Below, piece by piece: positions 55,662 through 60,455 of a stretch of 64,000 bases of DNA. Source of the DNA: Lepraria neglecta (taxonomy: Eukaryota > Ascomycota > Lecanoromycetes > Lecanorales > Stereocaulaceae); assembly GCA_033220425.1 (NCBI GenBank), contig CM065653.1, positions 3,286,001 to 3,350,000 of the forward strand, written 5' to 3'. Both the position numbers and the translations under genes were made by a program. A model generated the notes under the pieces. That model was given only the letters and a program-made list of their open reading frames with translations. It had not been told where the DNA came from and made no database searches. How positions within the stretch are numbered: the first letter of the stretch is position 1; every line of letters starts with the position of its first letter.

Positions 55662-56059
55662 ATGTCGTACTGGGGCAACCACTCTTCTTTGTACACAACT
55701 GTTCAGCCCCAAGGAGTGCAAGAATTGGAGGTAGCCATCCGTTTTCAGGTTCGCGGAGACTATGCGGATGCTTTGAAGTCATTTGAGCCACTGGACTAGT
55801 CCGCGCATATCGAGAATGCCATCCTTTACGAACGCATGGGGCTCGAGCAAGAGCGACTCAAAGTTTTGAACGCGGTCGAGGTCCAGTCAAAAGAGCCACG
55901 ACGAGAGCCCGGTGCCGATGAATGGGATTTGCTGAACCTGCTGCGAGCAAACGCCGACTTGTGCGCGAATAGAAAGCTAGAGCCTGCACTGTTAGAGGCA
56001 TGCATAGTAGCCGCGCAGGTTAATCAAAAGAGTAATGATGACGTCAGTGATCTGGAGGT

Positions 56060-56202
56060 TGTTGCAATGTGGCAATGGGCTGGGAAGGATATCTAGCTAA
56101 TGGGGGCCCCCAGGGGCCCATATATGGCCAAAACAGACAAAGAACGGCTAGCAACAGGCTTCTGGAATCGCATAGAAAGCAATCAAGCAACGGATTGCAA
56201 CA
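56060..56202 (-). mobile_element. Solo LTR (143 bp), reverse orientation
   Basis: On the minus strand it starts TGTTGCAATCC and ends CATTGCAACA, the same 143-bp unit as the two LTRs at 56332-57108 with a handful of differences. Flanks GAGGT (56055-56059) and AAGGT (56203-56207) differ by one transition, the remains of a 5-bp target duplication. Insertion at the border of a host intron. Confidence 0.85.
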
Positions 56203-56331
56203 AAGGTGAGTACTCACTTGTCGATTATCTCTGACTCTCTAATAGCAGATTGGAAGGTCCATTGTGTATTTGAATGTTGGCACATATCCGCTCTTTGCAG
56301 AGCTAGAAGCAGTTATCTCGAGACTGAACAC

Positions 56332-57108
56332 TGTTGCAATCCGTTGCTTGATTGCTTTCTATGCGATTCTAGAAGCCTGTTGCTAGCCGTTCTTTGTCTG
56401 TTTTGGGCATATATGGGGCCCTGGGGGCCCCCATTAGCTAGACATCCTTCCTAGCCTATTGCCACATTGCAACAGGTTATGAGCCCGGACAGCGCCTATT
56501 TCGCTGTACCTTTATGGGGAAGGTTCCCTCGCAGTACGGTGTCTGCGTTGTATACGTTCAGCCCTCGGATTTGCTTACCAATCGACTTACAGATATAGAG
56601 TCAGAACTCAGTAGAGGCATCATGGAGGAATTCGGCTTCCAGCCAGTTATTTCTGGGAGTATTTCGGTCTGGATACAGGGGAGATAAATTCTCAGGCCTA
56701 CGACGACTACTCAAGCCCTATACGGGCACAGCTCCTCAATCAGTTATTTCTGGGAGTATTGCGGTCCGGATACAGGGGAGACACATGGATTCTCAGGCCT
56801 ACGACGACTACTTAAGCCCTACACGGTTCTGTACGCACGGATCCGGATACAGGGGAGACATATGGATTCTCAGGACTATCAACGACCTCTCGGACGCCGA
56901 CAAATGTTTTGGGTCCAGGATTGAGGGGAGCGCTAGCAGGGATATGTTTCTAGTATCGAGGGGAGTGTTGCAATCCGTTGCTTGATTGCTTTCTATGCGA
57001 TTCTAGAAGCCTGTTGCTAGCCGTTCTTTGTCTGTTTTGGGCATATATGGGGCCCTGGGGGCCCCCATTAGCTAGACATCCTTCCTAGCCTATTGCCACA
57101 TTGCAACA
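56332..57108 (+). mobile_element. Complete miniature LTR retrotransposon (TRIM), copia-like, 777 bp
   Basis: LTRs at 56332-56474 and 56966-57108 are identical over 143 bp, begin TG and end CA. The 5-bp duplication AACAC lies at 56327-56331 and 57109-57113. Directly after the 5' LTR, GGTTATGAGCCCGG (56475-56488) is complementary to the anticodon arm of initiator tRNA-Met, the kind of internal primer site used by Drosophila copia. The purine run GAGGGGAG (56958-56965) directly precedes the 3' LTR as polypurine tract. The 491-bp interior has no gag or pol; it holds a tandem repeat of about 97 bp starting at 56644 and 56741 plus a partial third unit near 56842. Identical LTRs mean a recent insertion. 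Mobilisation would need proteins from an autonomous relative not seen here. Confidence 0.9.
56644..56880 (+). repeat. Internal tandem repeat of the miniature retrotransposon
   Basis: Units start CAGTTATTTCTGGGAGTATT at 56644 and 56741 and contain GGATACAGGGGAGA and ATTCTCAGGCCTACGACGAC. A partial third unit from 56842 repeats TCCGGATACAGGGGAGACAT. The period is about 97 bp, then 77 bp. Confidence 0.85.
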
Positions 57109-59232
57109 AACACGAGGATATCCTGGGAGGATTTAGGTCGATTCTACCTGGCTCAAAGCTTGATACGACACGAAGAATGGATAGAAGATTATGGCAGTAG
57201 TCAGACACTATGCGCCTATGAGGATTTTCTCGAAGCATTCTCAGCGCCAGAGTTCACACGAGATGTTACTGAATCAACACGCACCAAACTCGCATTTACT
57301 CTTTTATTCTATGCTGAGGCTCTTGCTTCAGCGGGTAAAAGCGTGGAGTCTTCTAGACAGCTGGAGGTTACCAAGGCACTCTTGCAGAAGGCTGATACCC
57401 ATTCGCAGCATTCATCTCTAGAGATACCTGCCAGAGCTCAATTGCTGATTGACAGGGTCCATGCTAAGTCTCACGAGGCAACTACCGCAAAGGAAAGAAA
57501 GAACATTAGCCTGGCATATGCGAGCAAAGCCGAAGCTTTAAAGGACTGGCCCGTGTATCGCGAACACATGAGGGCCGCAATCAGACAGTCCTACGAGGCT
57601 AGAGAAGCTGCAGAGCTGGAGTCAAGGGCCGTGGAAGCTAAAAATTACCTCGATATTCTGAAAAGGTACTTGGAGTTTGAGGACAGCGTTGTCCATACTG
57701 CCGCGTTCCTAGGCTCTGCAGTCAGCGAATTTGGCCTCGCCTACGTTCGACAGGGGGCAAGTTAACTCGAGGACTATCTGACAATGGTAAAGGATTTTGA
57801 GAAAGACTTCCCCGACTTCTCTATTCCTTAGAATATGGTAAAGTTCGCACAATCCGCTACTCGAGCTGCTAGAGACCTCGGTAATAGGGAGGCTTTCCTG
57901 CATTGTCGTAATGTAGAACAAAAATGGAACGAAAAATGCCCATGGATGGTGGAACGTTCCGGCCAATACATCCTGGAAGACCACTTGCCTGACAGATACT
58001 CGTTCCGATTTGGAGTCACAGCTTAGATGGTCAGACTCGACGTGCTGCCGCCGAGGTTTCAACGAATCTCATCCTGAGGTGGATAAAGAAAGAGTTGCAT
58101 AAGAATGTATTGAGTAAAGTGGAAGCGGAAGAGTTACTTCAATGGGCCAGGCTCAGAGAAGCTTTTTCTGGCGCAGATGACACGCTACCGAAAAGTGTCA
58201 ATTTGGATGCGTTGCCCACCAATATCATCAATCAGCTCTGCAGCGTTCTGTTCGGCGCCCAGAAGCCGATCGAGAATGAGATTTGGGAACGCTGGTTCTC
58301 CAGCCTGAAAGCCTGGTTGCAGCCTGATCGGACCCCCTCACGATACCAGCGCCTGACCGTACTCAAGGAGGTCCAAATACAAGGTACCAACAGCTCAACA
58401 ACTACAACATGAATGTTCCTTTCTTTACTCGATTGCCACATATACAACACTTGAGGAAAGCGGCAGAGAAGTCGTTTCTACTTCATCAAGAGATACGAGT
58501 TAGTGTGCCAGAAGTGGTCAATGAGTACGAGCTTCTCACATGTCAATGGCAGTGTGCGGGAGCCATAAAATTACTTGGCGTGCAAAGGAGGAGGACATCT
58601 TGATAGATGATCTGATCCTCGAAGCTATCAACATCTATGAAAGTCTAAGCCACGAATTTGATGCTCGTGACGAGCTTATCAATCTTCACCGAGCAATGCT
58701 CACATAGTCTCGCTAGCAACAATTCAGATCCGTGGGTGTGGGTTCTTGTCTCCCATATTTCCGTCGCGCCGAGGAAGTGTATCTGAGGATACGCGTACAA
58801 AATGCTGTCCGCAACTCTTCCAGAGCCCTTGTATCGGAAGACATGCTTGCAGAGCGTCTACAGATGCCTTTGCTGTATAGCATGGCCAGATCCACGGCAA
58901 TCTTAGCCCACGACACGTATGCATTTGCACATCAAGATGACTTAAAGACCGCCCAACGGACCAATAATACAGAAATGGAAGCTTACCGATCCGAGGTGAT
59001 ATCTTGGTGTCAGAGTTCTAAGGCTAGGGTTCTCACAGATGTTCTGGGGATCGAAGCGGACATCCCAGCAGGCATTATGGCTAGTATCAACGAGTCTCCG
59101 GTAGCTGTACAAAGCCTTGCCAAAGAGGAGGCCATTTTGCATGAGGTGGATGGTGCCTCACTCAGCCAGAAGGTACAGCTTCGCGAACAATTGAAGGAGC
59201 TCCAGGATAGCATCCGTATGGATGAGCCTAAG

Positions 59233-59375
59233 TGTTGCAATCTGTTGCTTGATTGCTTTCTATGCGATTCCAGAAGCCTGTTGCTAGCCGTTCTTTGTCT
59301 GTTTTGGCCATATGTGGGGCCCTGGGAGCCCCCATTAGCTAGATATCCTTCCCAGCCTATTGCCACATTGCAACA
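59233..59375 (+). mobile_element. Solo LTR (143 bp), direct orientation, with perfect 5-bp duplication
   Basis: TGTTGCAATCTG...CATTGCAACA, the same unit as the other LTRs with several transitions. CTAAG occurs directly before (59228-59232) and after (59376-59380). The host codons on the two sides are in frame when one CTAAG is counted, so the insertion is precise and lies in the linker before the CHAT domain. Confidence 0.9.
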
Positions 59376-60455
59376 CTAAGTTGAGACCTGTGATGGATAT
59401 GCGGGCAGGCAACTCCCTACCCACCCAAGCATTCGTGGAGCTGGCTGGAAAGGGCGTAGTTATTGTGGACTGGGTGGTTGTGTTCGGTCTACCAATCGAA
59501 GTCATCATGCTAATCTACCGAGAAGGGAGACTCTGCAATATGACACTCTTCAATTAATCCCGAAGAAGGCAATAGTTCCAACGAACCTCCAGGCCCCAGA
59601 GACTACAGACCAAAAAGCGGCAGAAGGACAAAACAAAGACGAGCCTAAGCTACCGCCTCCGCAGCCGTAATGGATTCGATTTCAACAGATTGAGACTTGG
59701 GTGAACGACTCTCTGACAAAGCAAAACCCTCTCAGCAGAAAATACGAGGACGACTATGATTCATCCAAATAATTAAATTGTCGATTGTGATTGTTGTTGA
59801 GTTTGGTCCGTCCGTTGCAGGAACACACAAAAGAGGGAGAGCATCTAATGTTCTGCCCAACGCGAACTTTGTATCGAATCCCGCTCCACGATTTGAAGAT
59901 TGGAGGAACGTCTATTATTGAGCGCGTATATCCAAAGCATATCACTCCTCCGCAGTTACGATGTCTCAATGTACAAAGAACAACTTCGCCCAGCTCGGAG
60001 CCCAGGCGGATATCATACATGCCCACGGACATGTTATCTTCGATGTGAAAGACCCCTTGCCTTTGAAACATCATCTCGTCCTTGGCCATCCCGACGAAGA
60101 CCCCAAGAAACAGCTGAAAGCGGACGAAATATGCAATATCAAGTTCCAGCCCGGTGCTCTCATCATGGCGATGGGTTGCAATATTGGTCGTGCTCGTCAA
60201 TCAGACTGCGATGACCTGCTTGGACTGACGGCAGCTTTCCATTGCGTTGGTGCAGGGACGGTGGTTTCAACGCTTTGGATGATCGATGCAGATGATTGCA
60301 TGACATTTGCGAGTGTTTTCTACGCTTACATCATTGAGCGCTTAAGAGACCGTAGCGACCCAAGTGCCCCCGTGGATCTGGCGGTGGCAATGCAGAAGGG
60401 CATTACTGCTGTTCGTTTTGATGAAGCAAAGAGGGAGCGTGACCCCTATCATTGA

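Follow-up and report, generated by a model that had tools for sequence, protein, structure and literature searches.

TRIMs are defined, in plants and animals, as elements shorter than 1 kb that have terminal repeats of 100–250 bp, a primer-binding site (PBS) and a polypurine tract (PPT), and no genes (PMC6934838). In fungi, Zymoseptoria genomes have been screened for them (PMC7014611), and the Helenus TRIMs of the rusts (Pucciniales) have a PBS for the anticodon loop of initiator tRNA-Met (iMet), 5-bp target-site duplications (TSDs) and Copia as the likely helper (Kojima 2024, PMC10886601). One Helenus TRIM and its Copia relative have a common interior, with unlike LTRs (PMC10886601). The Copia-1_CH-related TRIMs of Cochliobolus heterostrophus are likewise related to Copia, have LTRs running from TG to CA and come from an ascomycete; there are 7 copies, and the accessible text does not discuss their primer site (PMC4112212). 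Drosophila copia and yeast Ty5 use an internal segment of iMet as primer (PMC10886601; for the Hemivirus type, PMC8515867). A survey of Copia elements in filamentous ascomycetes describes an internal tRNA-Lys PBS for FunCo1 and none for GalEa (PMC5445492). The general kind of element that we describe here is already known, as iMet-primed TRIMs in rusts (PMC10886601) and as Copia-related TRIMs in an ascomycete (PMC4112212), so the surprise is limited. This particular TRIM family did not appear in our literature search, which had most subscription papers outside its reach.

The window that we analyzed is a stretch of 64,000 nucleotides from Lepraria neglecta (GCA_033220425.1, contig CM065653.1, positions 3,286,001 to 3,350,000), and it contains a unit of 777 bp whose parts are listed in Table 1. 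A first-pass annotation, made from the sequence letters, had described this unit as a recent, copia-like TRIM without coding capacity, and the parts it named are all in place. The two LTRs are identical at 143 of 143 positions with 634 bp between their starts, AACAC is present on both sides, GGTTATGAGCCCGG directly follows the first repeat and ATCGAGGGGAG directly precedes the second. The longest frame lying mostly within the unit is 128 aa, and the three inner frames gave nothing over the Pfam cut-off (best E 0.13); a 229-aa frame starting at 57076 overlaps the unit only in the 3' LTR. The identical LTRs also fit the claim that the insertion is recent. With TG..CA direct repeats of 100–250 bp, a length below about 1 kb, a PBS and a PPT, and no transposition proteins, the window copy fits the plant and animal definition (PMC6934838) when compared by description; the 28 tabulated copies of the family range from 708 to 3712 bp, and 12 of them are longer than 1 kb.

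Table 1. Features of the TRIM insertion and its surroundings, in window positions.
Feature	Position	Strand	Details
Solo LTR of the TRIM family	56060–56202	-	95.8% identical; flanks GAGGT/AAGGT (one mismatch)
Left TSD	56327–56331	.	AACAC
5' LTR	56332–56474	+	TGTTGCAATC..CATTGCAACA
PBS	56475–56488	+	GGTTATGAGCCCGG, 14 nt; 14/14 complementary to initiator tRNA-Met anticodon arm
Non-coding interior	56489–56954	+	diverged repeated modules at 56644–56725 and 56741–56826
Short stretch in common with D-type gag start of chimera L035	56618–56630	+	CATCATGGAGGAA, 13 nt
PPT	56955–56965	+	ATCGAGGGGAG
3' LTR	56966–57108	+	same sequence as 5' LTR
Right TSD	57109–57113	.	AACAC
Third LTR of the TRIM family (solo)	59233–59375	+	95.1% identical; TSD CTAAG
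CHAT-domain fragment, downstream of the insertions	59922–60452	+	PF12770, E 1.1e-14

This one TRIM family accounts for three separate insertions within about 3.3 kb (56060–59375), upstream of a CHAT domain. The upstream solo LTR is older than the window TRIM. Neither this LTR nor the one at 59233–59375 had been named in the first-pass annotation. The first-pass annotation had placed the insertion inside a TPR-CHAT gene, and the CHAT part of this stands, on a PF12770 match. We could not confirm the TPR part or that the insertion sits within the same gene: when five flanking fragments were run against Pfam, four had no family at all and TPR repeats were not among the matches. For this reason, the placement of the three insertions in one TPR-CHAT gene stays the reading of that annotation.

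We searched for the family in the genome from which the window comes (42.0 Mb in 11 contigs). With the whole element as query and 40 of 172 candidates scored, there were at least 107 matching pieces, and the LTR as query gave at least 40 matches, each at 97% or higher (40 of 199 candidates scored); these genome-wide counts are lower bounds. The copy search that the first-pass annotation had proposed as a check came out in its favor: TG..CA ends and 5-bp TSDs recur in many copies, and solo LTRs are present as well. Among 29 copies with two LTRs, the TSD was an exact 5-bp match in 26, had one mismatch in 2 and was missing in 1; the PBS was exact in 17 and the PPT was present in 25. The TSD count excludes L022_419, which is a solo LTR mechanically paired with a neighboring copy and is counted with the single LTRs, and L038_333, which is a truncated copy. 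For LTR identity we also excluded L037, and the LTR pairs were identical in 8 of the remaining 28 copies, including the window copy. Single LTRs had an exact TSD in 15 of 17 cases in a first set, and in a second set of 12 there were 8 exact TSDs and 2 with one mismatch; L036 and the 3' end of L038 are ends of truncated copies and were left out of these counts.

The window element is a member of a dispersed TRIM family with dozens of copies, and since the copies elsewhere have the same architecture, a chance origin of the structure in the window is excluded. Two identical repeats close to each other can also be produced by tandem or segmental duplication, and a DNA transposon might mimic an LTR element. 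However, the ends, TSDs, PBS and PPT all recur in copies that are unlinked and number in the dozens, and solo LTRs accompany them. We consider both of these readings refuted.

Repeat-induced point mutation (RIP) leaves transitions in CpA/TpG context as its trace. The differences between paired TRIM LTRs comprise 111 transitions, of which 79 are in this context, and 20 transversions. The interiors vary as well: five of the seven that we ran had tandem units of 56, 69, 74, 97 or 105 bp, which were absent from the window copy at the threshold used for the seven. One copy (L023, 2329 bp) has an element of another family, E, nested inside it. Gene capture or transduction was considered for the longest copy (L024, 3712 bp). 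The 2.6-kb insert of L024 is, however, a separate dispersed repeat found elsewhere (e.g. at 94% at C4:4484924-4487554), so we read it as a nested insertion. We saw no motif by eye over 41 tabulated insertion sites.

At one locus (L044, C2:1379959-1381082) there are two single LTRs in opposite orientation. The 5-mers flanking each LTR do not match, but they match crosswise, one pair exactly and the other at 4 of 5 positions (by eye). This suggests an inversion via recombination between LTRs.

For the primer, the first-pass annotation had proposed an internal piece of iMet, and this agrees with the genome's own tRNA. The sequence GGGCTCATAACCC is present at 13 genomic places, one of which is an Rfam-recognized tRNA (C2:547752-547821, minus strand, 46.5 bits). 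Read by context, 10 of the others are the PBS of copia A or element E (both introduced below), one is a fused site in L067 and one (L074) is neither. The complement of the TRIM PBS lies whole, at 14 of 14 positions, in the anticodon arm of this initiator tRNA-Met locus (L094/L103). The anticodon arm is perfect, yet in the Rfam alignment the 5' acceptor strand lacks two positions, and ARAGORN makes no call at this locus. Neither a pattern for the tRNA D arm nor a similarity search found a second initiator locus, and the tRNA search scored 63 of 1294 candidates. An intron-bearing initiator gene was tried and rejected, with 18 pattern matches against 19 in the reversed control. The PBS would pair with the anticodon region of initiator tRNA-Met and not with its 3' end, which points to half-tRNA (Hemivirus-type) priming, and the primer would end near nucleotide 40 in standard numbering. 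Drosophila copia and yeast Ty5 (PMC10886601) are autonomous, whereas the window TRIM is without coding capacity.

The size class, the 5-bp TSD and the PBS for the iMet anticodon loop are all as in the rust Helenus elements, so one might take the window element for a Helenus-type TRIMp3, whose LTR includes a Pol III promoter derived from a tRNA. However, the tRNA-like Pol III promoter that Helenus has in its LTRs (PMC10886601) was not found in the window TRIM. There was no tRNA match on 56000–57200 up to E 10 (two matches to other families were at chance level), and ARAGORN finds no tRNA in the window. We regard this identity as very improbable.

The RVT_2 profile has 52 matches in the genome, and BLAST among 20 of these loci gave four groups, one of which, group D (L048, L059, L064, L065), resembles the TRIM. 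Its LTR is about 163 bp, and over the first 37–39 bp it matches the beginning of the TRIM LTR at 81–87% identity (87% in L048). The LTR ends in CATTGCAACA in L048, L059 and L064, the polypurine tract CTCGAGGGGAG precedes it, and it is followed by a PBS that is GGTTATGAGCCCGGGG or a RIP-like variant. The alignment of TRIM and D LTRs scores 27.5, while the best of 500 shuffles scores 10.5. Family D has the matching LTR ends and primer site that the first-pass annotation had proposed to look for in a copia element. With LTR termini, PPT and PBS in common with a copia family of the same genome, the TRIM appears to be of the Ty1/copia-dependent type, and copia D is likely its partner.

Outside the LTR ends, PPT and PBS, the similarity between the TRIM and D is weak. 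Beyond the PBS, the two leaders show no significant likeness (equalled by 294 of 1000 shuffles), and the same is true of the TRIM interior compared with D gag past the chimera junction (425 of 2000). The score of the CATCATGGAGGAA match to the gag start is equalled by 8 of 1000 shuffles, and this stretch could possibly be a relic of gag. The arrangement differs from that of the one Helenus and its Copia relative, which have the interior in common and not the LTRs (PMC10886601), whereas here it is the LTR ends that the TRIM and D have in common.

There are 41 matches to the D LTR. Among these we examined eleven single LTRs, with 8 exact TSDs and 1 with one mismatch at the match boundaries, and a ninth exact TSD appears when L136 is extended to the full LTR length (by eye). 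Both two-LTR D elements that we examined have exact TSDs. The LTRs of a 4.75-kb copy (C8:3391789-3396541) agree at 152 of 163 positions, with all 11 differences being transitions. In a 3.4-kb, internally deleted copy (C7:3200188-3203566), the LTRs agree at 162 of 163 positions and the TSD is TCCTT, from which we conclude that copia D moved fairly recently. We assigned 10 copies with an RVT_2 match to D (4 via BLAST and 6 via a D LTR just downstream, with 11 matches), and none of these is intact: 9 have stops and 1 has a partial domain without a stop. Copia D is thus a putative helper at the present day, and an intact D helper may have been missed, may have been lost or may be found in other strains.

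At one D locus (L059, C8:2185436-2189113), a D-type LTR with its PBS runs straight into D interior of the opposite orientation. This is perhaps a self-integration product.

A chimeric copy, L035 (C2:2585773-2586530, minus strand), joins the TRIM and D in one element. It has two TRIM LTRs (140 of 143 positions identical) and the TSD AGCAG, and positions 141–498 of it (358 bp) are D leader and gag start, 92% identical to the best D copy (C7:3200355-3200708); 14 genomic places other than L035 itself match this stretch. From 499 onward the sequence is TRIM again. About 7 nt are missing across the LTR/PBS junction, so the chimera itself is damaged. Gene conversion between integrated copies could also produce such a mix. 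We prefer a template switch between TRIM RNA and D RNA in one particle, and the mix would be as expected from joint reverse transcription of the two RNAs. As support for movement of the TRIM by copia proteins, the chimera is indirect. In cereals, LTR elements have been proposed to switch templates with one another (PMC1950507).

An intact copia of this genome belongs to another family, copia A, and it is possible to imagine that A moves the TRIM with only the PBS in common. The copia A copy L047/L070 (C4:1435975-1440863) has a 1459-aa open frame around the RT, LTRs that are 99.45% identical, the TSD AGATC and the same PBS as the TRIM, and Kojima 2024 (PMC10886601) argues that LTR homology is unnecessary. 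However, the LTR ends of copia A are CGTTAGC..GCTAAAG and not TGTTGCAA..TTGCAACA, the TRIM/A LTR alignment is equalled by 50 of 500 shuffles, and the sequence in chimera L035 is that of D. Copia A also already has a short partner with A-type ends, element E. We consider copia A unlikely as the helper.

Element E has an LTR of 108–109 bp, with the same CGTTAGC..GCTAAAG ends as copia A, not TG..CA (L047/L070, L066, L073, L075), and with the same primer site. Exact 5-bp TSDs were found in all 3 copia A copies and all 3 E copies that have both ends. E also occurs at a fourth locus (L078), which has one LTR only and is outside this count. The E/A LTR alignment exceeds all 500 shuffles. The other LTR alignments were equalled by 66 (A/D), 24 (E/D) and 23 (E/TRIM) of 500. 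Comparing LTR ends and primer sites, each short element matches the ends of one copia, and all four families have the same primer site.

A further structure is found within L067 (1394–1646; C1:5531466-5531718), where two E-type LTRs stand tail to tail, with the TSD GTTGT. Between them, CCCGG marks the point where the iMet primer site joins the 3' end of tRNA-His. This end has CC as in the mature CCA, where the one tRNA-His gene that we saw continues with GT. It looks like an integrated, aberrant by-product of reverse transcription in which a mature tRNA was copied.

Taken together, we believe that the TRIM is a Ty1/copia-type LTR retrotransposon that is non-autonomous and primed by an iMet fragment, and that copia D, or a family closely related to it, serves or once served as its helper; we put the probability of this at roughly 0.88. 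The first-pass annotation had suggested a copia-class non-autonomous family with half-tRNA priming, and the TSDs, the tRNA complementarity and the copia D ends all argue for it. TRIM RNA would be packaged by copia-element proteins, and reverse transcription would start from an initiator tRNA-Met that lacks its 3' part and pairs with GGTTATGAGCCCGG, as the complementarity suggests. Plus-strand synthesis would begin at GAGGGGAG. The helper, with its LTR ends, PPT and PBS in common with the TRIM, would supply the integrase that attaches the TGTTGCAA..TTGCAACA ends at a staggered cut, giving the 5-bp duplications that we observe.

More tentatively, at somewhat under even odds, the genome may hold two parallel pairs of parasite and helper, the TRIM with D and E with A. 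All four families would be primed by the same truncated iMet, each pair would have LTR ends of its own, and L035 (the template switch) and L067 would be integrated fossils of the process. Since each pair has its own LTR ends and the primer is common to all, the primer signal and the integrase signal would be separable. If this is true, TRIMs primed from the iMet anticodon, which have been published for rusts, would extend to a second, RIP-marked fungal-type genome, and chimera L035 would hint at co-packaging. The genome would then be a natural test bed, in which a single primer site is combined with two sets of LTR ends across two non-autonomous/autonomous pairs. More of the interest lies with these parallel pairs and with the fossils.
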